DNA of 34,266 nt from Candidatus Martarchaeota archaeon (GTDB lineage: Archaea; Micrarchaeota; Micrarchaeia; Micrarchaeales; CABMGC01), in contig JAMCSX010000013.1 in assembly GCA_023379055.1 (NCBI GenBank), positions 1-34,266 on the forward strand, given 5' to 3'. The translations under genes were made by a program, and so were the position numbers. Positions 7,040-34,266 of this stretch are shown here, piece after piece. A model generated the notes under the pieces. It ran no database searches and was not told the origin of the DNA. It was given only the letters and a program-made list of their open reading frames with translations. Position 1 is the stretch's first letter; the number at the start of each line of letters is the position of its first letter.

Positions 7040-8276
7040 CAGAATCACCATCTCCATTTTCCTTCCCAACCTTTTCCCCTTTCCCATTTCCAAGAGCCCT
7101 GAATTTGTCCCCAACACCGTTGAGCTTCCCGTTTAGCTCCCCTACCGACTCGGTTACCTTCGCGGACTTTTTCCTTATCGACTCCGCCGACGTTGTCTGT
7201 ACTGCCCTCTTCTCAGAAAGTATGCGTGCATCATCCTTCATCCTCTTAAGCTTGTCCAATAGTACATCCCTCTCCTTGCCGACCTCATCAAGATCCTTTT
7301 TTATGCCAACAAGTCCGCTGTTAAGCTCTCCGATACTTCCAAGATCCCTTTTCATATTATCCACCTCAGGCCTGAGCTCGGACATGCTGGAGTTGACAGA
7401 CTTCGAGAGCCTTGCTATCTCGTTAGTCCCACTAGTGAGCTCATCAAGCACCCTCCTGCCAGCCTCACCGGTGTGCCTTATGGCTGCATCAGACGCCCTT
7501 TTGTATTCTGCAATGGATTTCTCGTAGTCGTCTATCTGATTATCCTCAAATTCAAGTATCTTGGCAAGCTCGTCGTGTCTCTCCCTTATCTTGCGCGATA
7601 TCTCAAGCGCATTCTTCCTGTACTGGTATATGACCGATTCAAGGCTCTTTGACATCTCGCCGATGTTCCTGTCATATGCCTCGAGCTGGCCGTGCAGGTC
7701 CTGCGATACTGCACGTGCATTGTTCGTGTCTGCAGTAATTCCCGACAGGCTTGCAAGATATTTCTGTACGGTCTCCAGGTCGGCCTGCGCCTTCTCCGAC
7801 ACGCTCTTTATGTGGGCAGTGCGCTTCTCCATCTTCTTCTCCACTCCCTCTATGTAGCCCTCTATCCTGTTTACCCTGTCTAGCATGTCCTTTACTCCCT
7901 TGTATTTTGTCCTGAACAGCTCATCTATCCTGAGAAGACCTCTGCTGAATTCTTCTATCCTTGCAGACACCTGATTTACTACTGCAATCTGGGAATCAAG
8001 CTCTTCTTCAAGATGCGCGGACTCTGCCTTTGCAACTGACCGCTCCACTGCGGTGCCTGCGTGCAGGCCGGTGACAGGCGAAAGAAAGGCGCGTCCTCCC
8101 TTGTATATTATGCGCAGTATGTTTGCCTTTTCAAGCACATTCGCCCATCCGAGTATGACTGATTCATTGACACCGAGCGCATGCGCCACTGCAGTTACGT
8201 CCGTCTCCCCGTGCTCGTTCAGGTATGCCACGAGGGCGTCTATGCTTGTCTTAACTTCCTGGTCGGCCATTCCCAA
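7029..8276 (-). CDS. wHTH N-terminal domain plus long coiled-coil protein, first gene of secretion operon
   Basis: VKTSIDALVAYLNEHGETDVTAVAHALGVNESVILGWANVLEKANILRI.. (wHTH-like) followed by heptad-rich helices. Confidence 0.75.
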   Translation of the reverse strand: MGMADQEVKTSIDALVAYLNEHGETDVTAVAHALGVNESVILGWANVLEKANILRIIYKGGRAFLSPVTGLHAGTAVERSVAKAESAHLEEELDSQIAVVNQVSARIEEFSRGLLRIDELFRTKYKGVKDMLDRVNRIEGYIEGVEKKMEKRTAHIKSVSEKAQADLETVQKYLASLSGITADTNNARAVSQDLHGQLEAYDRNIGEMSKSLESVIYQYRKNALEISRKIRERHDELAKILEFEDNQIDDYEKSIAEYKRASDAAIRHTGEAGRRVLDELTSGTNEIARLSKSVNSSMSELRPEVDNMKRDLGSIGELNSGLVGIKKDLDEVGKERDVLLDKLKRMKDDARILSEKRAVQTTSAESIRKKSAKVTESVGELNGKLNGVGDKFRALGNGKGEKVGKENGDGDSDGK

Positions 8277-9284: not shown

Positions 9285-9686
9285 ATGGCTCTAATGAACT
9301 GGATAAAAAGATTGTATCTATTGGTATACGTTGCAATGTTCGGGTCCCTGATGTTGTCAGTTGCATATGCTCAGGCCACCACTGCCTTAGGAACCCCAAA
9401 TGCTGGAGTGACTTCCGCTTTGAGTTCTTCATTGTGTACAATAGTCGCTACAGTACAGTCAATTGTAACGATAATAGCATTGGTAATGTTCATTCTGGGC
9501 GGCGCACTTTATGCAATTGCACATATGATGCCAGCAGCAGGCAACCTGAAAGGAAACATGCAGGGCTGGGCGCTCGGCATGATAGTTGGCGGTGTAGTCG
9601 GCATAATAATAGTAATCGCAGCCCCTGGCATAATACATCTTATATCCAGCGCAGGAGGCATAGCTGCCGTAGTAACCTGCAGCTGA
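9285..9686 (+). CDS. VirB2/TrbC-like pilin candidate (signal peptide plus two TM helices)
   Basis: Signal peptide ...LLVYVAMFGSLMLSVAYAQA; then QSIVTIIALVMFILGGALYAIAHMMPAAGNLKGNMQGWALGMIVGGVVGIIIVIAAPGIIHLI, matching VirB2/TrbC size and topology; TATA-like TTTTTAAAC upstream. Confidence 0.6.
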   Translation: MALMNWIKRLYLLVYVAMFGSLMLSVAYAQATTALGTPNAGVTSALSSSLCTIVATVQSIVTIIALVMFILGGALYAIAHMMPAAGNLKGNMQGWALGMIVGGVVGIIIVIAAPGIIHLISSAGGIAAVVTCS

Positions 9687-9734: not shown

Positions 9735-11585
9735 ATGCCGGAGAAAGTACTGGGTGCAGGTAAATACGGCCTGACACTGTCCTTTCTTCTATTTGTGGCA
9801 GTGCTGGACTACTGGTTTCCATCGTTCTCTACATATGGGTCTGCAGTAGTGCTGTCCTTCACATTTCTCATCATATTCTATGCAACTGCATGCGGCTTGT
9901 ACAAGTCCAGGCCAAGCCGGACCCTTGGCCTGCTCATAAGCATATCCTTTGTGCTGTCCATCGCATTATTCCTCCTGGCTACCTTCGGATATGTACTCAT
10001 GGGCATGGCCTCTGCGCATGAAATCTACTTTATTGAAAATCTGGTAGTATTCTTCATGATGCTTTTTCTGCTTTTCTTCATACTTGAGGTATATTTTTAT
10101 ACCCGTAATAAATGGACAAGGGTATTCATACTGCTAATCGCAGTAATCCTGGTCGTATTGTATTTCTCAAACGTCAGGTATATAGCTGACGATGAGACAA
10201 CGCTCTCCTATTACGGCCTTGCCAGTTTCCTAAACGGATCCAATCCATATTCACAGTCTTTCTCTGCCATACTATATAACCTGCACGAATCCAGCGGACT
10301 TGTGGCAAGCATAAGCACAAGCAACAGGATAGCAGGGAGCATACAGTATCCTGCGCTGTTCTTTCTAATCAGCCTCCCATTATACCTCCTGGCAAATCCA
10401 ACAGCATCAAACCTGACCGGGAATTTCCTGCATTACCAGGCAATCACGTTCTTCCTGATCTTTATACTGGCGTACCTGCTTGTTGCCGAAAAAGGAAAGA
10501 GGTCTGGGCCGGCAATCTTGGCGTATATCTCGCTGGCACTGCTATTCAATTCGCTCAGCTCAATGCCCGTATTCATCATGGCCGCCTTAATTCTTGTCCA
10601 ATATTCCGATGTGGGCAGCAGGTATTCATGGCTATTCCTCGGGCTTGCAGCCTCAATCCAGGAACAGCTGTGGGTGCTGGTTGCCCTATTTGCAGCGTAT
10701 TCATTCAACACCAAGGGGATCAAGAGGGGGTTCATGGACGTGGCCGGAATTATTGCAGTCTTCATTGCAATAAACGGATATTTCATAATAATGAATCCTG
10801 CAGCGTTCATAAACAACATATTCGGAACTGCAACGAGCCTGTTGCCAAACAGCCTCTCTCCAATAGGGTATGCGCTGATAACATTGCTTAACGTATCATT
10901 GAACACTACTACCTACCTATTTGCCGTATCTATCCTTGCCACAATCCTATTGTCGCTCTATATAAACGAAAAAAAGCTAATACTGATATTCAGCATCATC
11001 CCGTTTCTCTTTCTGGGGCACGGCCTGCTTATGTACTATGTGCTTCCATTAAGCATATTTGCCATCATCTCTGCCATGGGCTTTGAAGAGAAAAGCAGGA
11101 ACCTGCTTAAAAGATCAATCAGCAGATCAGCACCTGCAAAGTATGCATATTATGGCACATTTGCCGCGCTGGCACTCCTGTCTGCCTACATGATACTCGC
11201 ATCGCACGGCACCTATTCCAGCCACGTGGGCATCTCAATCAGCAACATATCGATATCAATGCGCGATCCGAGGACACTGGCATATTCCTCTGATATCCGC
11301 TATGTGCCAGATACCAGCATGAAGCTATCCCTGCTAATACAGGAAAGCGCGGCTGGCAGCGTGGGATACCTCGGCCTATACAACGACAGCATTATAAACA
11401 GCAGTCTCAACTGCAGTTTCCCATGCTCTGTGAATGTGAATATAATAAACCTATCCGGTTCTGGGAACTACAACCTCACTGCCTACCTGCCGGCTAACAT
11501 GCCCACCCCTGCGTACATATCCGCGGTGCTCTACAACACAACCGTCTATTATGCGTCGCCAGCAGTATCATACATCAAATCCTGA
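9735..11585 (+). CDS. Polytopic membrane protein, GT-C-like glycosyltransferase candidate
   Basis: Many TM helices with extracytoplasmic YIADDETTLSYYGLASFLNGSNPYSQSF loop near the N-terminus and C-terminal soluble domain. Confidence 0.65.
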   Translation: MPEKVLGAGKYGLTLSFLLFVAVLDYWFPSFSTYGSAVVLSFTFLIIFYATACGLYKSRPSRTLGLLISISFVLSIALFLLATFGYVLMGMASAHEIYFIENLVVFFMMLFLLFFILEVYFYTRNKWTRVFILLIAVILVVLYFSNVRYIADDETTLSYYGLASFLNGSNPYSQSFSAILYNLHESSGLVASISTSNRIAGSIQYPALFFLISLPLYLLANPTASNLTGNFLHYQAITFFLIFILAYLLVAEKGKRSGPAILAYISLALLFNSLSSMPVFIMAALILVQYSDVGSRYSWLFLGLAASIQEQLWVLVALFAAYSFNTKGIKRGFMDVAGIIAVFIAINGYFIIMNPAAFINNIFGTATSLLPNSLSPIGYALITLLNVSLNTTTYLFAVSILATILLSLYINEKKLILIFSIIPFLFLGHGLLMYYVLPLSIFAIISAMGFEEKSRNLLKRSISRSAPAKYAYYGTFAALALLSAYMILASHGTYSSHVGISISNISISMRDPRTLAYSSDIRYVPDTSMKLSLLIQESAAGSVGYLGLYNDSIINSSLNCSFPCSVNVNIINLSGSGNYNLTAYLPANMPTPAYISAVLYNTTVYYASPAVSYIKS

Positions 11586-15857: not shown

Positions 15858-16595
15858 TTGTTGTCTGTACTTAATGAGTCATGGAATCTTTACAGGGACA
15901 AGATAAGCCTTGCACTGATATTCTCAATACCTTTTATCATAGCATTCGCCATACCCCTCATTGCGCCTCTTCCAACATACATGAGCGCAGGCGCAATATT
16001 CCTAAGGAGCGCGAGCATATTCGTGAACGGCAATATAGACCCGCTCAGCCTTGCAGTCATAACGCTCTCAACAATATTCTCCCTGCTCTTCCTCAGCTTC
16101 GCATTCGTGCTCATAAGTCTGCTTGTCAAGTCAAGAAGGACCCATTCCAGCACAAAGGCCATGGCGTTCAGGAACATCGAGTCATACATTGGAAAGGTAT
16201 TCTCCATCTTCCTTCTCTACGCCCTGATACTCACATTTGTCAACATAATAGGCTACTCGCTCGGGGCGTCAGCCCTGCTTACCGCAATAGTCGGATTCTT
16301 CCTCTTTGCAATCATATTCTACGCGCCAAGCGCTGTTGTTGTAGACGACAAGAGGGTATGGCGCGCAATAAAGGACAGCGCAAGGCTCGTAGTGCGCGAG
16401 CCGCAGTATTTCATACTGTGGCTTGTGTTGATAACAGTAGTGGTGTCGGTGCTTGACGTGGCATGCATATGGATATTCGGCACGTTCTTGTCAAGGTACG
16501 TTGTGCTAGTCCTCAACTCTCTGTTTGTGGTACCTTTCTTTGTGATCTTCATGGCAGAGGCGTACATGAGCAGATTCAAGCTGCTAAAGCATTGA
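15858..16595 (+). CDS. Polytopic integral membrane protein of unknown function
   Basis: 245 aa, about six TM segments; TTG start only 29 nt after the TnpB element end. Confidence 0.7.
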   Translation: MLSVLNESWNLYRDKISLALIFSIPFIIAFAIPLIAPLPTYMSAGAIFLRSASIFVNGNIDPLSLAVITLSTIFSLLFLSFAFVLISLLVKSRRTHSSTKAMAFRNIESYIGKVFSIFLLYALILTFVNIIGYSLGASALLTAIVGFFLFAIIFYAPSAVVVDDKRVWRAIKDSARLVVREPQYFILWLVLITVVVSVLDVACIWIFGTFLSRYVVLVLNSLFVVPFFVIFMAEAYMSRFKLLKH

Positions 16596-21200: not shown

Positions 21201-24200
21201 GCAATCCCCCCTTGGCAGCCTGATGTATAAAGGTTTTGTATTACGGGAAACAACTCCTGTATCCCTGAGCTTCCGCACCCCCATTCTCCTGTCTTCCCGT
21301 TCCAGTCATCAAGCACATACAAGTATCCGTTAACATCGGCTATGCCCACCGGGTGATGGTATGTTGCCTTATCAAGATAATCAGCACTTATGCCGGGGTT
21401 ATTCTTTCCAGCTACATCTCCACTGGTGGGGATTGCATCACCTATTATATAAGACATTGCCTTTTGTAATTTGTTGGCATTTGCGGATTGTGATGGCGTT
21501 ATGCCATAAAAACCCCCATTTGCAAGCCAGTTTGTTATGTTCAGCCCTACGCCATTCTCGTCTATATGCGCCTGCACGTCCGCAGCTATGGATCCGACTA
21601 CCGGAATGCCGCTGATAGCCGCCTGCACGCCTGCACCTACTGCTCCGGCTGCCGAAGTGCTGCTATATCCGTGTACGATGTCCGGAGAATATGAGAGGTC
21701 TATTGCGCCAGCGCAGATGTTTGGGTTGCTTCCACTCAACACTACAATATACCCTCCTGTCGAGGCATTTGCAAGGTATATCTCAGAGCCATCAGGAGAA
21801 ACCGCTATCTCTGGCCACACAGTCGTATGCGGCCACCCGATGACCGAATAGGGCTTTGTTCCGCTCAGCGCGCTACTCAGTTCATTCTGCTGCTCGGATG
21901 TTAATGACGAACTACTAATCTGCGACTGCGATACAAGTGGCGATTGAGACAAGGCGTAGCAGTTAACAATATGCGACTGTATAAGCAAAGGCCCGTTTCC
22001 ATTTGCATGCGATATCGTGACTATTGCGGGAACCGTTACTGCATTTGAATAGGTTACTGCTGTTGAACTACTGCTCGCCGATGCCGCAATCACATAATAC
22101 CCTGTTACATATACGTCGCCAAGAGAATCCGAAGCCATCCCAAGCGGCACAAACGTGGAGCCGCCTATATCTCCGCTTGACAGCATATTTATCTTATTGT
22201 TCTCTCCAAATGTTGTAAGTTCCGTTGACGCTACATTAATATTCAATGCAGATGAGAGAGGTATTGCATTCGCCAGGTAGACTGAGCTTGTCTGCATTGC
22301 AAGTACGTTATTCCAGTAAGTGTTCCAATTGCTGGCGAATGTCTGCGAACATGTGCTTGCTGCGCTTGCCCCTTGCGTGCATGTTGCAATCTGCACGCTG
22401 TTAGGCTGGTATTGCGAAGTATTGTAGTATCCGGGCTGCACCTGCTTAAGGACAAACAGCTGCAATCCAGGGGTACTAAATACGTTTGACTTAGTGTTTG
22501 TCTGGGATCCGTCCGGCACCGCAGGAGCGCATACCCAAGCCAGCACATTATTTATTCCGGTCAATGGTGTACCGCTTTGAAGCGCCGAGGCCACTGCCTG
22601 GCACCCGGCAAACGGCGCCTTTTGCCAGGATGTCAGAAATTCATTAAACGAGTTCTCAACCTTGCCAAAATTACTGCCAATCTCGCCTGCAATCGTCTTT
22701 GGGGACCCTCCATTTACTAGTGCACTCAGCATTGCAGAATTCATGAGCTTTGCAGTTGCCTGCTCCCCTGCCTGCGCAGTGCTGAAACTGCATATCTGTT
22801 TGCCTGGAATTGTGTTGCTGCATGAAACCCCCCCATCACCGTTAGTTATGAGCAAGGGATTGTAGAACGGTTCGGTGCCTTTCCAGAGCAATGACGGTAT
22901 GCCAGAAATGCCCACACTCTCCCATTCAAAATACGATACTGCCTCCAAGAACTGGAGGGAATATTGCGAAGGCACAGTAGCCTGCAAGTTATTTGCTTTT
23001 TCCCCATACCAGATAGAGCACTGGAAGAATATGTCAGCAGTCACGGTGCCTGTGTCATATGGGCACTGCCCGGTCTGCGCGGTCTTTGTAGTGCCGACAA
23101 CATACAGGAATCCGTTTGGAGTTGCGGTCATCGCGTCTGCCTGTATATTAAATGTCACCCCTTCACTTGTTGCAGCTGGATTTGACGACAGACCAGACGC
23201 GCCTCCAGAAGCAAGGCCAGATGCAAGTGCAGAATATGCTGCTTGTGCCTGGCTTTCCCTTACGGGTCCATTACACAGCCCATAGTTCGGTGGATTATTA
23301 TATCCGCTGCATCTCTCAAAATTTTGCATGAATGCGATAGCCGCCCCTTTCGGAGTGGTTACTCCGCTCCACCATGCTGCCCCGGGGCCATAGCCGCTCG
23401 TGATAATAAGCTGTATCTGGTTCTGAATGTCCAGTTGCGGATTGCCGGTTATTAAACTTGGCGATGTCGGATATGAGGATGTAGTAAAGCATACAAATCC
23501 ATTGCACCCTCCGCCACTGCTCTTCTGTTCCGGATTTATGTTCTTGTAATTCTGACCGCCGGTCTCCTGTGCGGCATTGCCCATTATTCCAGCAGCCTCA
23601 ATCTGCGAATAACCCGCAGCTATCAAATCACACCAAGCTATCTTATAAAGCGGCTCTCCCGTCTGGCTTGCAGCACATCCCGTGGATATGGTGGTTGGTA
23701 TGCCCACTCCGCTCTCAGGATATGGCAGTCCGAAGTTAGTATCCGCTATCGCCTGAGAAAGTCCCTGTCCAAGTCCCGTTACATTATAATAGGCTAGGGA
23801 TGGATTCAGGAAGGTCGAGGATGCCGGATTTATGCTAAATACGCCACCGTTAAAAAATAGGCTTGTGGAATTCAGCGGCACAGGCTCTATCCTTCCCTGC
23901 GGCTTGTAATAGTTCCACGGACTGTAAAGGTCATAAGACAACTGCAGGTTATACGCCCCCTGCGGCGCAGGATTTGTAATATTGTAATTATAAATCAGGT
24001 AGGGAAGCACCTGTGTACTCAACGATCCGAAGTTGGGCTTGCCATTTGTTGGAGGTTCAACTATCGGAAATGGCACGCTCTGCTGCTGTATGTTGCTGAT
24101 CGAGATGGACGAGGTATAATCATAAGAGTAAGTGCAGTAATTTTTGGATGGTATCGCCGATCCAAGCCCATTCTTGCCGTTCCAGTATTCGCCTAACAGG

Positions 24201-25465
24201 TTATTCATGTCTCCTGCAGGATTGGGGGCCTTGCTCTGAATATCTATGTTCTCTACAAACGCAAACTGACTTAGCCGCGTATCTGCGGCAGTGTCAGTCC
24301 AGCCTGGGAACGGGCTATCAATCCCGCCAGGAGCAGCAAAAGACGAGAGCGGCTGATTCCCTTCCGTCAAATAGGTTCCCGGAGCAATCAAGGAACCCCA
24401 ATTTGCCTTCATTTCATATGCCAGGGCCTCCTCTCCAGCAGCTGCGTTTCCAAATACCGCTATTTCCTGCGTACTTGGCAGTTTGTCTCCAGGCGGTGTA
24501 TATCCGCACAATACTTTTGCACTGCCATAACTGCTCTGCGATGTCGAAATGCCCAGGGGATTCCATAGCAGGAAATTCCCGCCATCCGGTCCAAGATTTG
24601 GCGCTATCGATGCGCCGAGCGCCTCGAGGAAGTTTATGTTGTCAGTAGTTGCAGGATATCCTGCATCCTCCAACGCTGCTCCAAAGAAAGAATTGGCAAA
24701 CCCCGGCCAGTTTGTTGCAAGCTGATCTACCTGTGGCGTGCAGCTTGGCGCGCCTGGTGGCACATAGTATTCATGTGTTCTCTGCACCTCTGACAGGCTG
24801 CCAGACAGCTGGCCCAAGTTTGTATAAGCGGCAGCAGACCACGTCCACAGCCCCTGCTCACCATACGTCGGATTTGCGCTATATATGTACCTATTTCCTC
24901 CAGACGAGGTGGACACTATATCCTGCGGAGGTATACCTGCAGGTGCGTTTCCAGTAATGTTTATCATGGGATTATATCCCAGTATTACTGCATTTACTTC
25001 GGCTATGTCGCTGAATTGCAGGTCGGGTGACGAAACCGGGAAAGAGCTCGGCGAAGAGGGTGGGGAGACTGCTATCTTGAACTTTACGCTAGGGTTGAGC
25101 TGTGCAGTATTCGTGTAGCATCCATTCCCGGCGTAGTCTACTCTCTCACCTGGCTGCCAAGAGGTTGAAGTCTGGGACGGTGATATCAATGAAAGGGTAG
25201 TGTATGTCTTGCCTGGTGCGATAGGGCACGTTATCAGATCCATTGCATACTCGTTGTTATAATCCTTTACCTGCTGCACGGGGGAGGTGTTTGATTGCGA
25301 TACTACCTGGGTACTGAACAATGATTGAAAGGGTGAGGGTATTGCACTTGCACCTGGCTGCAATCCTGCGGGCTGCGATGCCGATGCTACGGCCACATAT
25401 TCAGAGAGCATAAATAACGATACCAGAACAGACAGAATAAGCAACGCGTTGTGAAACCTACCCAT
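18251..25465 (-). CDS. Giant secreted, C-terminally membrane-anchored surface protein (~2404 aa) with lysozyme-like and beta-propeller-like segments
   Basis: Signal peptide MGRFHNALLILSVLVSLFMLSEYVAVASAS; C-terminal TM plus basic tail LLAIAALVVAFAFMRTRTKKRISKKRIRYA; start chosen at 25465 because the minus-strand TATA (TTTAAATA near 25500) is about 35-40 nt upstream, whereas the ORF-track start (25543) lies upstream of it. Confidence 0.88.
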   Translation of the reverse strand: MGRFHNALLILSVLVSLFMLSEYVAVASASQPAGLQPGASAIPSPFQSLFSTQVVSQSNTSPVQQVKDYNNEYAMDLITCPIAPGKTYTTLSLISPSQTSTSWQPGERVDYAGNGCYTNTAQLNPSVKFKIAVSPPSSPSSFPVSSPDLQFSDIAEVNAVILGYNPMINITGNAPAGIPPQDIVSTSSGGNRYIYSANPTYGEQGLWTWSAAAYTNLGQLSGSLSEVQRTHEYYVPPGAPSCTPQVDQLATNWPGFANSFFGAALEDAGYPATTDNINFLEALGASIAPNLGPDGGNFLLWNPLGISTSQSSYGSAKVLCGYTPPGDKLPSTQEIAVFGNAAAGEEALAYEMKANWGSLIAPGTYLTEGNQPLSSFAAPGGIDSPFPGWTDTAADTRLSQFAFVENIDIQSKAPNPAGDMNNLLGEYWNGKNGLGSAIPSKNYCTYSYDYTSSISISNIQQQSVPFPIVEPPTNGKPNFGSLSTQVLPYLIYNYNITNPAPQGAYNLQLSYDLYSPWNYYKPQGRIEPVPLNSTSLFFNGGVFSINPASSTFLNPSLAYYNVTGLGQGLSQAIADTNFGLPYPESGVGIPTTISTGCAASQTGEPLYKIAWCDLIAAGYSQIEAAGIMGNAAQETGGQNYKNINPEQKSSGGGCNGFVCFTTSSYPTSPSLITGNPQLDIQNQIQLIITSGYGPGAAWWSGVTTPKGAAIAFMQNFERCSGYNNPPNYGLCNGPVRESQAQAAYSALASGLASGGASGLSSNPAATSEGVTFNIQADAMTATPNGFLYVVGTTKTAQTGQCPYDTGTVTADIFFQCSIWYGEKANNLQATVPSQYSLQFLEAVSYFEWESVGISGIPSLLWKGTEPFYNPLLITNGDGGVSCSNTIPGKQICSFSTAQAGEQATAKLMNSAMLSALVNGGSPKTIAGEIGSNFGKVENSFNEFLTSWQKAPFAGCQAVASALQSGTPLTGINNVLAWVCAPAVPDGSQTNTKSNVFSTPGLQLFVLKQVQPGYYNTSQYQPNSVQIATCTQGASAASTCSQTFASNWNTYWNNVLAMQTSSVYLANAIPLSSALNINVASTELTTFGENNKINMLSSGDIGGSTFVPLGMASDSLGDVYVTGYYVIAASASSSSTAVTYSNAVTVPAIVTISHANGNGPLLIQSHIVNCYALSQSPLVSQSQISSSSLTSEQQNELSSALSGTKPYSVIGWPHTTVWPEIAVSPDGSEIYLANASTGGYIVVLSGSNPNICAGAIDLSYSPDIVHGYSSTSAAGAVGAGVQAAISGIPVVGSIAADVQAHIDENGVGLNITNWLANGGFYGITPSQSANANKLQKAMSYIIGDAIPTSGDVAGKNNPGISADYLDKATYHHPVGIADVNGYLYVLDDWNGKTGEWGCGSSGIQELFPVIQNLYTSGCQGGIAFNFLTLRVINASGVDVPITPYIPPSSAGGKSDIWQVNQGGCGNSLSPGTGIALLAVAMASGPITAAAGLFGASKLEQECMTVTPYSGKYSGYGYPPYGWILSGQITAGGSGQTHATIDVSSDIIQGCITSQSETNVGCTTYPTSVLTYTKPYAPIGPQIASWSCTADNVGLFGFGPTFHHSCASTPLSGVQFSVSINNTVSIYVPSCAKLVSEGQFNGADCAWGGNGGVNFDKSPANLYGELLFLKFDLQNYTLPVGVGYPGTASYNCYTTDSGSSSYIRSGSVDIEQPLIWDRQDGITDAPKPQSPGLCQNYGQTSADLVYSINPPIYFFTNPFVYDQNRGYAQSLSLAQTMASEFGYGVGSSTNINNNPSAFTVQEGTDLESASSASSGTFLNNLIGGGTSQPSGTGQLATAENSHISGYVLFPYSYSYTLTQSIDNVNPVSQSACTGFAPPKLQQSTTQQTVYAYTQANVVPNYLNATVSGGSLYSEYGNGTLYVPKLGSVSLPPQVITRLLGNRMIGTAYVNITVPGTGVQNAQDIVNATSQMTFADVVATQQGGAFPGFSYISASANPGVPCYGPSCAQSFANAKNSFGSYSNFDAQNIYLPTQIALLYMNKIPTRVFNEQLFLNRSGTSYSKLLGYHRLIFAYADAFNNIIYQPIDADIANLTQINMTVTPIVNSTNANDTIINITGTAGWIPQGATAEIPLKNSPIYLYYDANLNTEGYNAISSYAQVHAIASQCIFNASRRAADSGCQLANPVYSGLQGTPNGQHNMGYVGPNVTTYNTQYNSTGRCSPPPSSLFTPIQYNCNIYNNDSLNRACPPYVTNSKGGTYLPPYPEYCMPIALNGSGICTSQLGLANITQTNAHGKFNALISACGYGYSKITAVYYGTPPPEPTTATQVPLGYSAYTLNHPTPITFGVFNYSWVPANQTVSVPIGTFLLGLGRVSAFALLAIAALVVAFAFMRTRTKKRISKKRIRYA
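23230..23690 (-). other. Phage-tail-lysozyme-like domain within the giant protein
   Basis: LYKIAWCDLIAAGYSQIEAAGIMGNAAQETGGQNYKNINPE...QLDIQNQIQLIITSGYGPGAAWWSGVTTPKGAAIAFMQNFERCSG; AGIxGNxxQE(S/T)G plus AxxFxxxFER pattern; putative catalytic Glu codon at 23564-23566. Confidence 0.65.
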
Positions 25466-25499
25466 GGCGACTAACACCCTAAGTATTCTGCATTGCCCT

Positions 25500-25510
25500 A
25501 TATTTAAATG
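25500..25510 (-). promoter_or_regulatory. TATA box of giant surface protein gene
   Basis: ATTTAAATATAG on minus strand upstream of ATG at 25465. Confidence 0.5.
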
Positions 25511-25599
25511 TTTGTCCAAATCGCCAGTACTTAACAACGACAAAACAGTCCCTTACCGGCGCTATTGTCCGATTTCCAGACATTGAAGGAGGCAGTTCC

Positions 25600-25867: not shown

Positions 25868-27418
25868 ATGGGTCTGACCAAAGCTGCCATATTCTCCTTA
25901 CTAATGTTATTCTCTGCGTTGTTCTCCAATCTCCTGTATGCGTCAGCCGCTTCGCCGTTCTCAACAAGCGCAAATCCGTGCAGCTTCAGTCCATCCCCTT
26001 CTTCACCGAATTTCCAATCCGGCATCTGCTCCTGCCCGCTTTTCACCCAGCAGATATATCAGCAGCCATCTGGGTTCGGTGGTTTTGGCAACATCCTCCT
26101 GTCAGACTTCAGCATCTCGCTTATCGCACTCACGCTCTCATTCGATACAATAGCCATAGCGTTCATGCTGAGCAAGATATTCACGCATCAGGGCATCAGG
26201 AACTGGCTTCAGAACGAATACTTCGAAGTAATAAAATCCGCGCTGATCATAGCAGGGATATTTCTCCTTCTCATATTCCTGAGCAACATAGCGTACCTGA
26301 TAAGTCCGAGCTACAGCCAGTTCATCCCGTCTACTCTCTCCGGTTATCCTGGAAACATCGCCGGACTGACTTTGGGTTCTGAGTCTTATCTCTGCCTGGT
26401 CAGCACCAACCTCAATACCGTATTCACGGTCTTCGGGAACATGGCTTCGGGGGTTGCAATAGCCAACTCCTTCAATCTGGGCTTCTACATTCCTATCCCG
26501 CTGAAATATGTTACAATCCTGAGCGGAATAACGTGGAAGCCCTTCGGGAATCTGATGATTCAAACGGGCAACTTCATCATAGGCCCCTACGGATCGCTGC
26601 TTAACGACATGGTAAACTTCGTCCTATTTCCTGTAGACGACATTGTCGACATATCCATACTCATGCTTCCGTCAATAGTGCAGTTGGGCCTTGTCGTCCT
26701 GATACCGATCGGCATCCTATTCCGCGCATTCCCATTTGTGCGGGGCATAGGAGGCACCCTTATCGCAATGGGGATAGGGCTGGCACTCCTGTGGCCTTCA
26801 CTGCTTCTGCTCTTCAACTATCCAATAACCAACCTTGTCACAAGCGTATTTCCGGTACAGCCGATAGACCTCCATGTCCCTTCAACTACGAGCAGCACAA
26901 ACGTTGCCGGCCTAATCGAACACGCGGTTAACAAAGCCACAGGCAGCCCCTCCTCTAGCATCTCTAGCATAATACTGGGTAGCAGTAGCAAGTTGCAGAC
27001 GTGCCCCTCCTTGTCCAACCTCATATCCATTAGCGCAATCTTAAATCCTGGCAAAACCATTGCACAGTTCGCCGAATCAATTGCATGCAATACCTTTGAA
27101 GTCTTCTCAGGTACCATCAATGTCATGTTAACAACTGCATTCACAACTGCATTCAACCCTATCATAAATGCCGCTTCCGCCATTCAAAATGGACTAGTAA
27201 ATCTGGGCGAGACCCTCGTCTATTTCGTCGAAACCCTGTTCCCAGGAAATATATATCCATACCTGAGCGACATGATCTCTTATGGCGTATATCCGATAAT
27301 ACAGCTTCTTCTCTTCCTGTTCGACCTCATAATACTATATTCGCTTACCGATAGCATAGCGAAATCCCTTGGCGGAACAATAAGGGTGCAGCTTGGAAAC
27401 AAGTTGAGGCTTGGATAA
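25868..27418 (+). CDS. Polytopic membrane protein, paralogue 1 of 6
   Basis: Signal peptide; IRNWLQNEYFEVIKSALIIAGIF; GILFRAFPFVRGIGGTLIAMGIGLALLWPSLLL; C-terminal SIAKSLGGTIRVQLGNKLRLG. Confidence 0.85.
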   Translation: MGLTKAAIFSLLMLFSALFSNLLYASAASPFSTSANPCSFSPSPSSPNFQSGICSCPLFTQQIYQQPSGFGGFGNILLSDFSISLIALTLSFDTIAIAFMLSKIFTHQGIRNWLQNEYFEVIKSALIIAGIFLLLIFLSNIAYLISPSYSQFIPSTLSGYPGNIAGLTLGSESYLCLVSTNLNTVFTVFGNMASGVAIANSFNLGFYIPIPLKYVTILSGITWKPFGNLMIQTGNFIIGPYGSLLNDMVNFVLFPVDDIVDISILMLPSIVQLGLVVLIPIGILFRAFPFVRGIGGTLIAMGIGLALLWPSLLLLFNYPITNLVTSVFPVQPIDLHVPSTTSSTNVAGLIEHAVNKATGSPSSSISSIILGSSSKLQTCPSLSNLISISAILNPGKTIAQFAESIACNTFEVFSGTINVMLTTAFTTAFNPIINAASAIQNGLVNLGETLVYFVETLFPGNIYPYLSDMISYGVYPIIQLLLFLFDLIILYSLTDSIAKSLGGTIRVQLGNKLRLG

Positions 27419-27430
27419 TGGTGCACAATC

Positions 27431-28705
27431 ATGTTTATGCTAGCAACCAACCTACCGACCACTGCATACAATCTTGCATGCAACTATGGCTCAAACCTCG
27501 GGAGCCCCACCGCCTCACTCAACGCGTTCGGCTGGATCCAAATAAACCTGCTTGTCATAATCGCCGGGTTTATGATAGCCGCACTGGTATACATGCTGAG
27601 CGGCTTCTTCCCGGTATCGATGCGGGAGAAACTGAGGGGCGTAGTCAAGTACGAGTATTTCCAGATGACACTCGGCATAGTAATACTGCTTGCACTGATA
27701 GCCTTCTCATCTACAACCTGCCGGATAGGGCAGGCGCTTGCGATTGGCGCGCAGCCTGTCGGGCACATCCTTTACTCCGATCCGATGCAGTGGTCGCAGT
27801 CGTACCTAAGCAATCTTCTCTTTGTAAAAGGCTTCTCCCTTTTTTCCAACATCTACGCCGAATCGCAGTTAATAGTGTTTGATGCCAACATCATGGACAC
27901 AGCTGGCGAGATTGTCTCGTCACTTCTGGTAAATCCGTTCTTCGGAACGAACCTCAATCCCGGCCTGCTTGCCGTCTATTTCGCATTCTCAAGTACGCTG
28001 ACAAGCACGTTTGTCCTTCTTATGGTGGTGGCATTCGGAGTAATATTCGTAATCTACATGTTTCTCCCGATTATACAGGCAATGGCCCTTACTGTTGTAG
28101 TGCCGCTTACGCTGATACTGCGATCCGTGCCTTTCGCAGGGCCGAGACTCAGAGAGTCCGCTGACTCGATAATGGGTCTCGCAATAGGCTTCTATTTCAT
28201 ACTTCCCCTTGTCCTGATACTTAATCAGTACATCATTACCTGGCTATATACCCCGTGCATTATCCAGACCTCGCTTAACGGCCTCGCATCTACCCATCCG
28301 CAGTTCCTGCTGTGCAATCCGTACTACGAATTTACCGGCAGCTACAAGCTGATCAACATACCTGTTGATTCATTCTTTACTTCCTCGCCATCTACCCTTG
28401 CCTCCGGCGTGCAGGGTGTAGGAGTAGCGGGCCTTGTCAACGGAGTTGTCCCGTCATTCTTTGGCGGGGCGATAACCGGGGCCGGAGGCGCGGGTCCGTT
28501 TATTCAGAAGATATTCGGCAGCCTGTTCGGACTTCCGCAGGTAATAATCGCATACTCGCAAGAGGTCTCACAGTATCTATTTGAAGGCATAGTCCTTATA
28601 GGCATTGATATGGCCATAACCATAGGCTTTGCACAGGGACTGTCAAAGGGCTTCGGGTCGGTGTCAAGGATTATCGGAACAGGGCCGTTCTGGGGTAATA
28701 TCTGA
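27431..28705 (+). CDS. Polytopic membrane protein, paralogue 2 of 6
   Basis: REKLRGVVKYEYFQMTLGIVILLALI; LILRSVPFAGPRLRESADSIMGLAIGFYFILPLVLI; C-terminal GLSKGFGSVSRIIG. Confidence 0.85.
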   Translation: MFMLATNLPTTAYNLACNYGSNLGSPTASLNAFGWIQINLLVIIAGFMIAALVYMLSGFFPVSMREKLRGVVKYEYFQMTLGIVILLALIAFSSTTCRIGQALAIGAQPVGHILYSDPMQWSQSYLSNLLFVKGFSLFSNIYAESQLIVFDANIMDTAGEIVSSLLVNPFFGTNLNPGLLAVYFAFSSTLTSTFVLLMVVAFGVIFVIYMFLPIIQAMALTVVVPLTLILRSVPFAGPRLRESADSIMGLAIGFYFILPLVLILNQYIITWLYTPCIIQTSLNGLASTHPQFLLCNPYYEFTGSYKLINIPVDSFFTSSPSTLASGVQGVGVAGLVNGVVPSFFGGAITGAGGAGPFIQKIFGSLFGLPQVIIAYSQEVSQYLFEGIVLIGIDMAITIGFAQGLSKGFGSVSRIIGTGPFWGNI

Positions 28706-30585
28706 TGAAATTTGCCAGTATAATCGCATTGATGGCTGCATTCGGGATGGCGCATGCAGGCACCAGCACGCTCCAGTTTGCTCCGTCCTCGGCATTCAAC
28801 AACTGGGTCCCGATAGTCGGGGTGGGCATCCTCCTGGGGGTCATGATATCCGTAATATATTACCTCATAGGGTGGTTCCTCGGCAATGCAAGACTAAAGA
28901 CACAGACATTCGTGAAGAGCAATGCCCTCAACGAGCTGGAGCAGACGCTAGGAACCGTGCTTATAGTCATAATAATACTCGGCGTTCTCTACTCGGTAGG
29001 CACAGGGGAGAGCCTCGCCTTCAGCAACATACTGTCAAACAACGCTGCAAAGTCCATAACAAATATCTGCAAAACCTACCTTCCAAAATCACAGATATCA
29101 TTTTTGGCCAACACCGGCACGCTTTACGGCCAAACCCAGCTTCTCTCGCCGACGACACAGGTATGCCACCTCCTCTACGCAGCGGGAAGCACAAGCAACC
29201 AAAACCTTTATGGGGTAAGCAGCTCCACTGCCAACATAGACTACGGGCTTGCGGCAACGTACACCATACTCGCAAACCTGACAAACCAGTCCGCAGTCAA
29301 TCTCAATTCAATATTTCATTTCGAGAGCCTCCTATTCTTCTTCAGGGATGTTAACGTATATACAACTGTCTGCCTCGGAGACCAATGCGCTCTGCCAATC
29401 GCAATACCCGAATTGGGACCAAAGTACGAGTCCGAGGTTAAGTTATCCGCAAAGCCCTTCGACGGATACGTCCTCCACAGGCTCATAATGCCCACAATAA
29501 CCACCGAAGGCACATTGATGCTCTACCTGTACCTGTTCCAGATGATACTGATACTCCTACTGCTGCTCCTGTGGCCATATCTCCTTGTTGCCGGAATCCT
29601 GCTCAGGACTGTGTCGTACACAAGGCGCATAGGCGGATTGCTAATAGCGGTGGTCGTGGTCGCCCTCCTAATATACCCGACCATATTTCTCATAGAGTAC
29701 TCCGCGCTCTCCAATGCGAGCCCTCCGCTGCCGCTTCTCGGCCTTCCCGTAGCGCCAGGCAGCCAAATCACGCAACAGGCGACGCTTGCCCAGGCTCCCG
29801 GACTGTCACAGGACATGCCGGATGCGGTTCTGTGCGGTGCGCCTCCTGGTTGGAACTCCGAAAACCCTGGCACAGGGTTATATTGCTATGTAAGCAGCAG
29901 CGTTACCTCCCTGCCCTCAAGCATAGTATTCCGTGGATTGCAGATGCTGTGTACCGGCAGCAATGAACTGCAGCCATCGGGATATCCATGTATAAGCTCC
30001 CTATTCGCTTCAAACCAGCCAACATGGCATCTCATCCTAAACTACATCCTGCTTGCATTACCTGGAGTAGGCACTTCGGCCCTAGGAATTCAATCTGTTT
30101 TGGCTGAGACTACATTGCCCCCAATAATCTACAATTGCAATGATATCCCCCAAAGCTCTAACAATGGAAAACCCGACAGTACGCATCCATGCTTCACGGC
30201 AAGGAATCTTAACTTCTATGTTTTTCCTAGCGCAAAGGACATAATAAACCTGTATTCCTATTATCCGACCAGCGTGGTCGGCACAGAACTGGAATACACG
30301 ATCTTCAGCGTTGTAACATTCCAGGGGGCGCAGTCCATACTTGATGAAGGCCTATCCGTAATGAGCGGCGGGTATATAGCTGCCTTGCCAGTGCTTCCAG
30401 CCTCATATTACCCGCAGAACGTAAGCGCCACCATGTTCGCCCTTATCAACATGTACGGCATACAGGCCGTAACAGGGTTCATACTTCCGATACTGAATCT
30501 TCTGATGCTCATATCCTCAATAACCGGGTTGTCTACTCTTATGGGCGGCGAGACAAACATACTGGGTATAAGCAGATTTATATAG
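28705..30585 (+). CDS. Polytopic membrane protein, paralogue 3 of 6
   Basis: NARLKTQTFVKSNALNELEQTLGTVLIVIIIL; GILLRTVSYTRRIGGLLIAVVVVALLIYPTIFLI; C-terminal GLSTLMGGETNILGISRFI; start codon overlaps preceding stop (TGATG). Confidence 0.85.
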   Translation: MKFASIIALMAAFGMAHAGTSTLQFAPSSAFNNWVPIVGVGILLGVMISVIYYLIGWFLGNARLKTQTFVKSNALNELEQTLGTVLIVIIILGVLYSVGTGESLAFSNILSNNAAKSITNICKTYLPKSQISFLANTGTLYGQTQLLSPTTQVCHLLYAAGSTSNQNLYGVSSSTANIDYGLAATYTILANLTNQSAVNLNSIFHFESLLFFFRDVNVYTTVCLGDQCALPIAIPELGPKYESEVKLSAKPFDGYVLHRLIMPTITTEGTLMLYLYLFQMILILLLLLLWPYLLVAGILLRTVSYTRRIGGLLIAVVVVALLIYPTIFLIEYSALSNASPPLPLLGLPVAPGSQITQQATLAQAPGLSQDMPDAVLCGAPPGWNSENPGTGLYCYVSSSVTSLPSSIVFRGLQMLCTGSNELQPSGYPCISSLFASNQPTWHLILNYILLALPGVGTSALGIQSVLAETTLPPIIYNCNDIPQSSNNGKPDSTHPCFTARNLNFYVFPSAKDIINLYSYYPTSVVGTELEYTIFSVVTFQGAQSILDEGLSVMSGGYIAALPVLPASYYPQNVSATMFALINMYGIQAVTGFILPILNLLMLISSITGLSTLMGGETNILGISRFI

Positions 30586-30592
30586 TGGTTCG

Positions 30593-31774
30593 ATGAAGAC
30601 TCCGGCGCTATTATTGCTTGTGGCTGTCCTTGCTGCACCAATGCTGCATGCCTCAAGTACATCGCTGAATATCATAAACTGCAAGAACCTCTTCAACGGC
30701 ATCTCCTCCCTAGGCGCAACTCACGCTACCACCATCTACCTTGTCAACCAGAACCTTGTGTCAATAGCTGGCAATCCTGCAGGATTCCTTGGCGTGTCGC
30801 TCCTTATAGTGCTTGCAGTATTGACCATACTCGGCCTTGTGTTTGCTGCTGGCATAGCGTTCCACATAGAGACGCTAATGCAATACGCCAGAAGCGAGCT
30901 CTTCGAGGTATTCATAAGCCTGCTCCTTATTACACTGGTAGTGGGTGGCACTCCGGCATTCGACGGCGCAATAAGCACGCTTGCAAATTTTGGTTCGGCA
31001 ACTGCAGGCGCAGCCCCAACAGCAGCAATCACCAACGCGCGCAACGTGAATATAGAAGCGTGCGACAACATCCAAAACAACATAATGAACGCGGGCCTAA
31101 CAAATTTCGCGGGACTGTTCGCGGCCCTCATATTCAATAACATCATAGTTTCATTTACGGTGCAAGTCCAGCCCAACGGGCTTGGGTTCACGTTTGCCCC
31201 GTTCGCAGGAGACAGCCTGATAACCCAGCTACTGTACGACGAACAGATGATATTCTTCGGAAGCATAATGTTTGGCACATTCCTGATAATGCTGTTGTTC
31301 CTGATTTATTTCCTATTCCCGATATTCTTCTATGTCGGCATTGTACTGCGCTCATTCCCCTGGACAAGGGCTGCCGGCGGATCGCTGATAGCGCTCTTCG
31401 TCTCATTCTGGATAGTATTTCCCGCGCTTATGTACTCATTCTCGGCTGTCACGGCTCCGGTGAGTACGTCTACCTGCCCGACAGGATACGGCCTTCCAAC
31501 ATCAACATCAACATCCGGATGCCTGCAGTTTCCTAAATACACATCATTTTTCTCCGTATCCCAGTTTGAATCACTGTTCCCGAATCTGGCGAACATGGGA
31601 GGACAGTATGAAAGCAATCTAGACAGCTTTGCACAATCCATTGGCTATACCGCAGTGCAGATAGTCGGACTTTTAATATCTCTCTTCATATCATATGAGA
31701 TGGTAGAGAAGCTTGGCGGACTCCTCGGCGCCCCATCGATGCAGTCGCAGAGAATGCTGAGCAAGGTGCTATAA
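30593..31774 (+). CDS. Polytopic membrane protein, paralogue 4 of 6
   Basis: IETLMQYARSELFEVFISLLLITLVV; GIVLRSFPWTRAAGGSLIALFVSFWIVFPALMYS; C-terminal EMVEKLGGLLGAPSMQSQRMLSKVL. Confidence 0.85.
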   Translation: MKTPALLLLVAVLAAPMLHASSTSLNIINCKNLFNGISSLGATHATTIYLVNQNLVSIAGNPAGFLGVSLLIVLAVLTILGLVFAAGIAFHIETLMQYARSELFEVFISLLLITLVVGGTPAFDGAISTLANFGSATAGAAPTAAITNARNVNIEACDNIQNNIMNAGLTNFAGLFAALIFNNIIVSFTVQVQPNGLGFTFAPFAGDSLITQLLYDEQMIFFGSIMFGTFLIMLLFLIYFLFPIFFYVGIVLRSFPWTRAAGGSLIALFVSFWIVFPALMYSFSAVTAPVSTSTCPTGYGLPTSTSTSGCLQFPKYTSFFSVSQFESLFPNLANMGGQYESNLDSFAQSIGYTAVQIVGLLISLFISYEMVEKLGGLLGAPSMQSQRMLSKVL

Positions 31775-32907
31775 TGCTGGGATTCGTGCTTTCGGGGGTC
31801 GTCAACGGATGCGTTACTAACAGCGGGATACTGAATACCCTGTCTGGGTTTCTATGCGCAGGCCCAAACATATGGTTTCCGATAGTAATGCTCGGGGTGC
31901 TAATAGTAATCAGCGTGGCAGGCATAATATTCGCAATAGCGCCGCTACTGGGCAGGAACGACATACGCGTATGGGCCAGGGCAAAGATGTTCGACGGAGC
32001 AGTGTCAATAATATTCGCCCTGATATTCATCTCATTCTCTGCAACCCTTTACCATACCCCGCTGGCGCACATGTATTACAATGCCGGCCTGCTGCCGCCT
32101 TCCTGTACTCCGGCATCCGTATACTCTTTTAGTGGCACCACTCCCCAAGGTGCAGACCAACAACAGTTTATTGATCTATCTCCTTCCCCCTCAAACGGAG
32201 GCACGCTATATGGCATAGCTGCCTGTGATATCTATTCATATAACCAATTGGTAGCCCAATTCGTGCAGTCGGTATTCTACTTCTCACTTATAGCCAATGC
32301 GGCTCCAACTACCACAATCGCTCCGGAGTCCGATCTCGGTTTCACTTTTACGATAACCTGGGTTCCTATAGTGGTGGTATTCCAGTATATGGTGCCACTG
32401 ATGGGTGCGCTGTTTGCCTTAGTCATGGCATCCGACATGTTGCAGATACTGATCGGAGTATCAATGCTCCTGTTCTCAGTGTTTATGGTGGTCGGTCTCA
32501 TTGCAAGATCCTTCGGCATAACGCGGTCCTTCGGAGGAGCCATGATCGCCTTCGGTCTCGGCATAGGGTTCATCTACCCTCTTCTGATCAGCGTATCATA
32601 CGGTTTCCTTGTAAATGCGATAGAGTACAGGCCCTCAATAACCGGCGGAATCCTTCCTTCGATAGGGGCAATCATATCTCCGATATACCGCGCTCTATTT
32701 GGTGGTTCAGGCCTGAGCCTTACTGCCCTAATAAATAGCTTTGAGCCTATCCTCAACCCATTATTTATATGGGGAGGCATGGTTGCCGTAGGCCTTACAG
32801 TACTGCCGCTTCTTAATCTTGTTATAGTTGACGCATTCATAATAGATTTCTCAAGGGCTGTCGGGGAGAGGATGGACCTGCTGTCGATATTGACCAGAAT
32901 AGTGTAG
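31774..32907 (+). CDS. Polytopic membrane protein, paralogue 5 of 6
   Basis: RNDIRVWARAKMFDGAVSIIFALIFI; GLIARSFGITRSFGGAMIAFGLGIGFIYPLLISV; C-terminal DFSRAVGERMDLLSILTRIV; start overlaps preceding stop (TAATG). Confidence 0.85.
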   Translation: MLGFVLSGVVNGCVTNSGILNTLSGFLCAGPNIWFPIVMLGVLIVISVAGIIFAIAPLLGRNDIRVWARAKMFDGAVSIIFALIFISFSATLYHTPLAHMYYNAGLLPPSCTPASVYSFSGTTPQGADQQQFIDLSPSPSNGGTLYGIAACDIYSYNQLVAQFVQSVFYFSLIANAAPTTTIAPESDLGFTFTITWVPIVVVFQYMVPLMGALFALVMASDMLQILIGVSMLLFSVFMVVGLIARSFGITRSFGGAMIAFGLGIGFIYPLLISVSYGFLVNAIEYRPSITGGILPSIGAIISPIYRALFGGSGLSLTALINSFEPILNPLFIWGGMVAVGLTVLPLLNLVIVDAFIIDFSRAVGERMDLLSILTRIV

Positions 32908-34035
32908 GTGTCCATGGTGAATAGATTTATCCTGTTGATGTGCGCTGCCTTTGCAATAATGTCATTTGTTGCGTTTGCGCCCCTTGTAAGCGCTGCATCC
33001 GCAGCCCCTACTCCTTCGCAGCTTCTTCCATCTTACCTGCGCGGATATTGCAGCAAGGGCGGAACAATATATACTGTGGCAAACTGGTACTGCAACGACA
33101 TCAACACCCAGGTCCAAGAAGAATGGGCCACGGATCTGCCGATAGCCCTGCTTGCGATAACCATAGCGCTGCTTGTTTCAGTCTCCATATTCATGTTCGG
33201 GGTTGCATTAAGAAACGACAGGCTCAGGACGTTCGGCATAGGTGAGATCTACGAGGCGTTTGCAAGCATAATAATAGTGGTGCTATTCATGTTTATGGCC
33301 GCAGTATTATTTGGATTGCTTCCCTCAATTACAGGAACACTAAATCCATTTACCGCATCACTTACCTATATATCATCTATAATCTACGAGTCTTCAATAA
33401 TCTCAACACACCTCTTTACATTGCTGACCACAGCCAGATACTATGCCTCCATAGCCTTAATCGTCTGCCCATCTGAGGGAACGTGCATAAACACATTTTC
33501 CGTATTCTCATTGGCAATAAACTATCTCTTCTTCTGGCCAGGATTCTCGGTATTTGCCTTTACCGCAGAGGCAATGATATCCCTTTATGTGCAGTATTAC
33601 ATGATCATCTTCTTCATGGAGGCATCCATACCCGTGCTGTTTATTCCAGGAGTAATCTTCAGGACATTGCTCCCTACCCGCCATCTCGGCGGGATGATGA
33701 TGGCAACTGCAATAGGCTTCTACTTCATAATGCCAACGCTTTATGGCGTAGCCTATGCTACAACCTCCAATTCAATATTCTCGCAGCTAACCCAGTCTGA
33801 GAGCTATCTGAATCAGTATGGCTCAGGTACCGGGGTAATAACCAATTCGGTATCCCCCGGCGCGCCGCTTGTAGCAACGCTTAAGGGCATCGCCCAGACA
33901 TTTACCGCATTCTGGCTTGCAGTCCTATTCTTCCCCGCACTCATAATAGCCATAACCTATTCTTTCATAACCCAGATTGCAGAGCTTATAGGTGGAATGG
34001 CAAGACCGTCGAGCAGGCTGAGGAGTCTTGTGTAA
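32908..34035 (+). CDS. Polytopic membrane protein, paralogue 6 of 6
   Basis: RNDRLRTFGIGEIYEAFASIIIVVLFMFM; GVIFRTLLPTRHLGGMMMATAIGFYFIMPTLYGV; C-terminal QIAELIGGMARPSSRLRSLV; begins immediately after the preceding stop codon (read as a GTG start). Confidence 0.83.
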   Translation: MSMVNRFILLMCAAFAIMSFVAFAPLVSAASAAPTPSQLLPSYLRGYCSKGGTIYTVANWYCNDINTQVQEEWATDLPIALLAITIALLVSVSIFMFGVALRNDRLRTFGIGEIYEAFASIIIVVLFMFMAAVLFGLLPSITGTLNPFTASLTYISSIIYESSIISTHLFTLLTTARYYASIALIVCPSEGTCINTFSVFSLAINYLFFWPGFSVFAFTAEAMISLYVQYYMIIFFMEASIPVLFIPGVIFRTLLPTRHLGGMMMATAIGFYFIMPTLYGVAYATTSNSIFSQLTQSESYLNQYGSGTGVITNSVSPGAPLVATLKGIAQTFTAFWLAVLFFPALIIAITYSFITQIAELIGGMARPSSRLRSLV

Positions 34036-34266
34036 ACTACCCACGGCTAAAGCCTGTGGACTTTCCATAAGCTGATGAAACATGTCGCACAGCAACAATC
34101 GGTTCAACAACCGCATCTGGACGCACGAGCCCGTTTACAGGGACTCTCCTATTGGAAATCTGGAGAGTATTATGGTTAGTAGTATCTCTCCGCTCCAACA
34201 GGGATTTTATGGCAATATTCAAACTTGCCTTTCTATCGGAGTTGACAACAACTCCGCATTTCTTGC
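34032..34266 (-). mobile_element. Right-end part of a second IS200/IS605-type TnpB element, running off the window
   Basis: Minus strand: hairpin CCACAGGCTTTAGCCGTGG followed by GTAGTTTAC, preceded by a TnpB C-terminus. Confidence 0.75.
34037..34266 (-). CDS. tnpB: TnpB family protein, C-terminal part (partial)
   Basis: Translated minus strand ...KKCGVVVNSDRKASLNIAIKSLLERRDTTNHN...STGFSRG*; second zinc-knuckle Cys plus RuvC-III Asp (NSDRKASLNI). Confidence 0.8.
   Translation of the reverse strand, partial: KKCGVVVNSDRKASLNIAIKSLLERRDTTNHNTLQISNRRVPVNGLVRPDAVVEPIVAVRHVSSAYGKSTGFSRG

Follow-up and report, generated by a model that had tools for sequence, protein, structure and literature searches.

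Six tandem VirB6-like genes kept as a unit in a type IV secretion-like operon of Micrarchaeota

In canonical type IV secretion systems (T4SSs), a single VirB6 gene provides the ring that serves as a membrane channel or pilus base atop the VirB4 ATPase. The present analysis concerns six tandem genes, named here g1 to g6, which would occupy the place of this single gene in a member of the Micrarchaeota deposited as Candidatus Martarchaeota archaeon (assembly GCA_023379055.1). Micrarchaeota are archaea of very small size, dependent on other cells. The window, that is the whole stretch of DNA analysed, is an entire contig of 34,266 bp (JAMCSX010000013.1, hereafter C13) from an 862-kb genome that is 85% complete. 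Among the closest described systems, that of R388 has a solved VirB6 (TrwI), a homopentamer acting as a pilus assembly platform above hexameric VirB4 (PMC9259494), and there are also pentameric models of VirB6 homologues (PMC12857230). Like the proteins studied here, TrwI is polytopic and helical, and its operon contains a VirB2 pilin and a VirB4 ATPase. However, it is encoded by one gene, and its sequence similarity to the Micrarchaeota proteins is undetectable with hhalign, which is insensitive in this case.

In archaea, Ced of the Sulfolobales and Ted of the Thermoproteales are DNA-import systems made of CedA/TedA, CedB/TedB and CedA1/TedC. They are chromosomal T4SS derivatives combining a pilin, a VirB6-like channel and a VirB4-like ATPase, and Micrarchaeota and DPANN go unmentioned in the paper that describes them (PMC9905601). 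They have one CedA/TedA gene whereas the Micrarchaeota array has six. In the rvh/vir systems of Rickettsiales, tandem, co-oriented and divergent VirB6a-e genes, some with huge extensions, stand beside virB3-virB4 (PMC2653234; PMC7648143). These systems are bacterial and have four or five VirB6 genes, in variable number, whereas the Micrarchaeota system has exactly six, with positional orthology throughout the phylum, duplication as a whole unit and a single-copy system alongside. T4SSs of an MPF-FATA-like type are also widespread and chromosomal in Patescibacteria, likewise ultrasmall and host-dependent cells; VirB6 homologues are reported there, and a six-gene array is not described in the part of that report considered here (PMC12102498). 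Finally, T4SS-like components are known in a DPANN lineage from nanohaloarchaeal giant proteins with a VirB4/TraG domain, in the account of which VirB6 is unmentioned and a six-gene array undescribed (PMC10266531). No description of a T4SS in Micrarchaeota was found in the literature searched, the coverage of which was incomplete.

Our reading of the locus, which we hold to be probably correct, is that g1 to g6 are VirB6-like T4SS subunits forming most likely one hetero-oligomeric ring, probably in a 1:1:1:1:1:1 stoichiometry. The six genes are the following:

25868..27418, plus strand: g1, VirB6-like paralogue at array position 1, 516 aa
27431..28705, plus strand: g2, VirB6-like paralogue at position 2, 424 aa, with a variant motif that is conserved in g2 orthologs
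28705..30585, plus strand: g3, VirB6-like paralogue at position 3, 626 aa
30593..31774, plus strand: g4, VirB6-like paralogue at position 4, 393 aa
31774..32907, plus strand: g5, VirB6-like paralogue at position 5, 377 aa
32908..34035, plus strand: g6, VirB6-like paralogue at position 6, 375 aa, for which an AlphaFold2 (AF2) model was made

The original prediction, made from the letters of the window, had placed six open reading frames (ORFs) of 516, 424, 626, 393, 377 and 375 aa at these coordinates, with junctions of at most 12 nt or overlapping and a TATA before the first gene. All of this holds: the measured junctions are +12, -1, +7, -1 and 0 nt; the TATA-like box, TTTTATAAG, is found about 30 nt 5' of the g1 ATG. 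The proposed paralogy of the six is borne out as well. Pairwise BLAST and phmmer searches link g1, g3, g4, g5 and g6, with E values down to 1e-9, g2 being weak or marginal at this level. When ortholog alignments (about 48 orthologs per family) are compared with hhalign, all 15 pairs match, with E values from 5e-9 to 3.5e-22 over some 200-310 columns; the other membrane families of the operon, serving as controls, gave no match to g1-g6 apart from a weak signal between g2/g5 and the pilin. The two motifs thought to be shared by the six are kept across other orders: in 61 divergent relatives there, R203 and P227 never vary, and conservation is at least 90% at E45, G199, R209 and G212 (residue numbers are those of the single-copy VirB6-like protein). 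The variant form of the central motif seen in g2 turns out to be a conserved feature of position 2 orthologs. An N-terminal hydrophobic segment had also been ascribed to all six; this does not apply to g2 and g5, the first hydrophobic stretches of which lie at residues 38 and 37, with no separate N-terminal segment. Position 3 is the longest in the order (median 531 aa versus 373-425 aa) and reaches 664-1143 aa in the b-type arrays mentioned below; the largest insert is found at this position both in the order itself and in b-type hexads. As a side observation, the first hydrophobic region of g2 and g5 is weakly similar to the TrbC-like pilin in hhalign (E 5e-5 and 1.4e-4). This similarity did not recur with wider alignments; it recalls the relation reported between the CedA N-terminus and CedA1 (PMC9905601).

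The array is widespread and its size is constant. The six-gene profile matches 152 of the 164 genomes of the order, and the g6 profile alone 261 of the 301 genomes of the phylum; among the 96 high-quality genomes, it matches 88. The contigs scanned belonged to Micrarchaeota-like records, a few of them titled Marsarchaeota or bacterium. When tandem runs are counted, 67 comprise exactly six genes, three are truncated at region ends and the remaining four multi-gene runs each resolve to six, one of them having a split g4. A further 80 loci, from partly shared genomes, give 47 exact sixes, and the sevens found among them include either a short additional fragment or a gene that is split. Apparent exceptions (G071, G096, G021, G251, L175 and L190) are explained by overlaps in ORF picking or by a split g4. 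Thus, intact arrays have six genes in every case. In other orders, many of the genomes examined carry two separate six-gene arrays.

Phylogenetic analysis points in the same direction. Within the order, g1 to g6 form six clades, each with a Shimodaira-Hasegawa-like approximate likelihood-ratio support of 100. A phylum-wide tree was built from 151 proteins, that is 24 hexads from many family-level lineages and seven single-copy relatives. Mapping seven labels onto this tree requires nine changes, for a minimum of six and a mean of 100 after shuffling, and positions 2, 5, 6 and the singles each lie on one side of a branch. Because this is a quick tree, with long branches flagged, positions 1, 3 and 4 are less certain. 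Position nearly equals clade, which points to one ancient six-fold expansion, colinear ever since. The a- and b-type copies of two-hexad genomes separate within most position clades, which argues that hexads were duplicated whole.

An array that never counts five or seven genes, keeps a fixed order and duplicates only as a whole is to be expected from a fixed hetero-oligomer, and six-fold invariance together with positional orthology across the phylum supports, at the level of genes, such an assembly for g1-g6. The main rival would be that the six are VirB6-like T4SS proteins acting separately, each as its own homo-oligomer, or one as the channel and the others as accessory, exclusion or surface proteins, as proposed earlier for Rickettsiales with their several VirB6 proteins. 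Tandem, highly divergent VirB6 paralogues number five in Rickettsia and four in Anaplasma, with surface-exposed and very large members (PMC2653234; PMC7648143), and very large inserts do occur in some members of the g1-g6 families. However, the number varies in Rickettsiales, virB6e being missing in R. massiliae (PMC2653234), whereas the copy number here is always six and hexads are duplicated in their entirety. Independent homo-oligomers would leave the strict colinearity and the absence of single losses unexplained. Separate roles are therefore regarded as unlikely, while being the alternative to be taken most seriously.

The genes surrounding the hexad in the window are informative when compared with those of relatives:

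9285..9686, plus strand: VirB2/TrbC-family pilin (PF04956, E=7e-7, 29.8 bits for a cut-off of 27.9), first gene of the operon in relatives
9735..11585, plus strand: polytopic 616-aa protein, placed after the pilin and before the hexad in a large part of the family, as judged from synteny
15858..16595, plus strand: 245-aa membrane protein, usually directly 5' of g1 in relatives, as judged from synteny
34036..34266, minus strand: contig end, a frame resembling by eye the C-terminus of IS605 TnpB, a likeness that a blastx comparison with the TnpB of the window did not confirm

In relatives, the pilin gene is followed by that of a polytopic protein like the one at 9735, by that of the 245-aa membrane protein and by g1 to g6. 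After g6 come an optional protein with two transmembrane segments and a long tail, then A280, B273 and V4, and then small proteins, a coiled-coil protein and an 800-aa membrane protein. The order from the pilin and its neighbours through g1-g6 to A280, B273 and V4 is kept in most of about 50 loci examined, so that a synteny search across Micrarchaeota, proposed along with the first annotation, did bring out a conserved operon. That g1-g6 make up one operon was right as far as they are adjacent and co-oriented, but the operon extends beyond the six and beyond the window. In the window it is interrupted by the genes of TnpB, of a radical SAM protein and of a 2430-aa surface protein, and inserted genes separate the 245-aa membrane protein from g1. 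The contig stops 231 nt past g6, and the ATPase half of the operon is therefore visible in relatives only. The IS605 TnpB-like frame at the contig end is probably the cause of the assembly break before the ATPase genes; hexad-type V4 and B273 were not found elsewhere in this genome's own, incomplete assembly. V4 (501 aa in relatives) is a VirB4/HerA-type ATPase, matching AAA_10 with 48.0 bits (cut-off 27.5), the TraG P-loop with 44.2 bits (cut-off 25.8) and the solved VirB4 4ag5 over residues 59-326. A280 and B273, directly before V4, are mutually homologous proteins of about 275 aa with two transmembrane segments (E 2.8e-10) and are candidate VirB3/VirB4N-like membrane proteins. It is thus well supported that g1-g6 fill the VirB6 position of a T4SS-like operon, between the pilin and VirB4 genes.

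A compact T4SS-like locus exists alongside the hexad in many genomes, including this one. It comprises a TrbC-like pilin and one VirB6-like protein of 314-375 aa, the TrbC/VirB2 pilin thus recurring beside both hexads and single VirB6 genes. Several such loci add a B273-like protein and a VirB4-like ATPase, in the order pilin, VirB6, B273-like protein, V4, so that the content is the same minimal one as in Ced/Ted. In the genome studied here it is found on another contig:

Contig C4, 9022-15986 (locus L219): TrbC-like pilin, VirB6-like protein of 342 aa, B273-like protein of 238 aa, VirB4-like ATPase of 370 aa
Further genes of L219: a coiled-coil plus helix-turn-helix protein, and a second ATPase of 731 aa with TrwB-type matches

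For the single-copy VirB6, AF2 modelling without an alignment gave a poor result (predicted local distance difference test score, pLDDT, of 42), which was not used. Hexad operons have two B273-type proteins (for instance L037 4840-5679 and 5690-6508) versus one at the single-VirB6 locus, which suggests that this slot was duplicated too. In other orders, each hexad genome examined has one high-scoring hexad-type VirB4, and in most genomes a strong hexad-type V4 is accompanied by a weaker copy, which is close to the single VirB6-like gene in several (G251, G206, G215, G239). Two complete hexads and one hexad-type VirB4 are seen in G178, G227, G228, G259, G206, G215 and G239; both arrays of one genome may hence use a single VirB4 motor.

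A link to VirB6 was sought from structure as well. In its AF2 model (pLDDT 85.7), g6 consists of very long helices. Compared with 996 chains using VIA-align, this model finds R388 TrwI/VirB6 at ranks 4, 5 and 8, with Z scores of 10.1, 9.4 and 9.2 in three entries and 198-246 residues aligned; the best alignment covers 246 of the 261 solved residues and most of the g6 model. This model-based comparison suggests that the g6 fold resembles that of VirB6. VirB6/TrbL/CedA-type channels had been named at the outset as the nearest analogue: the VirB2/TrbC pilin, the VirB4/HerA ATPase and the likeness of g6 to TrwI agree with it, and no sequence-profile link to known VirB6/TrbL was found. The proteins are accordingly called VirB6-like on account of their position and probable fold, rather than counted as established members of the TrbL family.

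Several observations weigh against a VirB6-type hetero-oligomer. The solved R388 VirB6 is pentameric, not hexameric (PMC9259494). A Z score near 10 for an all-helical protein may reflect a common arrangement, as unrelated helical proteins score alike, and Foldseek with the g6 model gave no significant match (TrwI at E 0.71). Pfam TrbL/VirB6 was not matched by the six, by 44 g6 orthologs or by 61 diverse members; a search of PDB sequences with the g6 and A7 profiles returned weak unrelated matches and no VirB6. Using hhalign, no match was obtained to VirB6 of R388, IncN, Rhizobium or Sulfolobus conjugative plasmids, nor between A280/B273 and single R388 VirB3 and VirB4 sequences. The VirB6 result is uninformative rather than negative, since the positive control, bacterial against Sulfolobus VirB6, fails too. 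Finally, the match of V4 to HerA (DUF87) is no weaker than that to AAA_10/TraG, and these profiles do not separate VirB4 from HerA.

This last point leads to a second alternative, a membrane- or surface-assembly platform driven by a HerA-type ATPase, where the six would be a scaffold or a polymer exporter and the TrbC-like pilin would be incidental. It would fit with the fact that no relaxase was seen in the vicinity of the arrays and with the 616-aa protein (9735..11585) of the operon, which is GT-C-glycosyltransferase-like by eye only and without a Pfam match. Against it, the pilin recurs at hexad and single-VirB6 loci alike, the single-copy locus has the minimal gene order of Ced/T4SS, and the likeness to VirB6 extends over nearly all of g6; such a platform is considered improbable. 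That a transporter family simply duplicated in tandem, without a shared complex, might be suggested by tandem polytopic membrane proteins and by the weak similarity of the A7 profile to ABC-transporter membrane regions (E 0.02), but scans of Pfam, NCBIfam and PHROGs, transporter families included, gave zero matches for g1-g6, in particular none to the characterised transporter family that was to speak against the original prediction, and with fixed number and order and a T4SS context this has very little to recommend it.

Returning to a hetero-oligomeric ring, a fuller scheme may be imagined. A single VirB6 gene would have expanded into six anciently diverged genes, kept together and in order, one of each. 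In the simplest form, the ring, whose assembly and stoichiometry we infer, would have one copy of each gene product, each in a fixed place, and the position-3 subunit would bear the largest insert in its own order. Below it would lie the hexameric VirB4/HerA-type ATPase with the VirB3/VirB4N-like membrane anchors. The ring would assemble a VirB2-like pilus and let a substrate through, plausibly towards a host cell or from one; the machine could import DNA, as Ced and Ted do (PMC9905601), or deliver its substrate to the host. The channel would be asymmetric and matched to the six-fold VirB4 motor, unlike the C5 homopentamer of the solved T4SS. Taken as a whole, this T4SS with an obligate hetero-hexameric VirB6 base, made of six fixed paralogues, born from one ancient expansion in Micrarchaeota, inherited colinearly and duplicated only as a whole unit, is put forward tentatively, as a possibility somewhat short of even. 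The interaction of DPANN archaea with their hosts is an open question, for which a phylum-wide T4SS-like machine is a concrete candidate. An invariant six-gene array beside a single-gene version in the same genomes offers a natural comparison for the passage from homo- to hetero-oligomeric rings, and VirB6 stoichiometry and asymmetry become directly testable.

Other features were observed near the arrays. In the window, the 2430-aa putative surface protein (18251-25543, minus strand) matches Phage_lysozyme2 (PF18013, E 2.6e-11) and, weakly, a beta-propeller; it sits between the upstream operon genes and g1 and was not found in the clusters of the ten relatives first examined. At two loci, L097 and L098 (genomes G030 and G029), a protein of 1844-1911 aa follows B273, and tblastn detected no V4 in the stretch fetched. 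In other orders, b-type hexads are followed by mutually homologous giants of 960-1855 aa:

L195 14673-19595
L197 16750-19899
L201 224-4519
L212 667-5382
L221 1915-7482
L223 2-2887

VirB4 domains were considered for giants flanking hexads and rejected, several being tRNA synthetases and the rest having no Pfam match. Most of the giants after b-type hexads carry N-terminal lipobox-like FGC motifs, and neither of the two scanned matched Pfam. Lastly, the window encodes on its minus strand (2769-8276) a T2SSE/FlaI-type ATPase, two T2SSF/FlaJ proteins and two coiled-coil or unknown proteins; this cluster is divergent from the pilin gene and stands beside the hexad operon in part of the family only.

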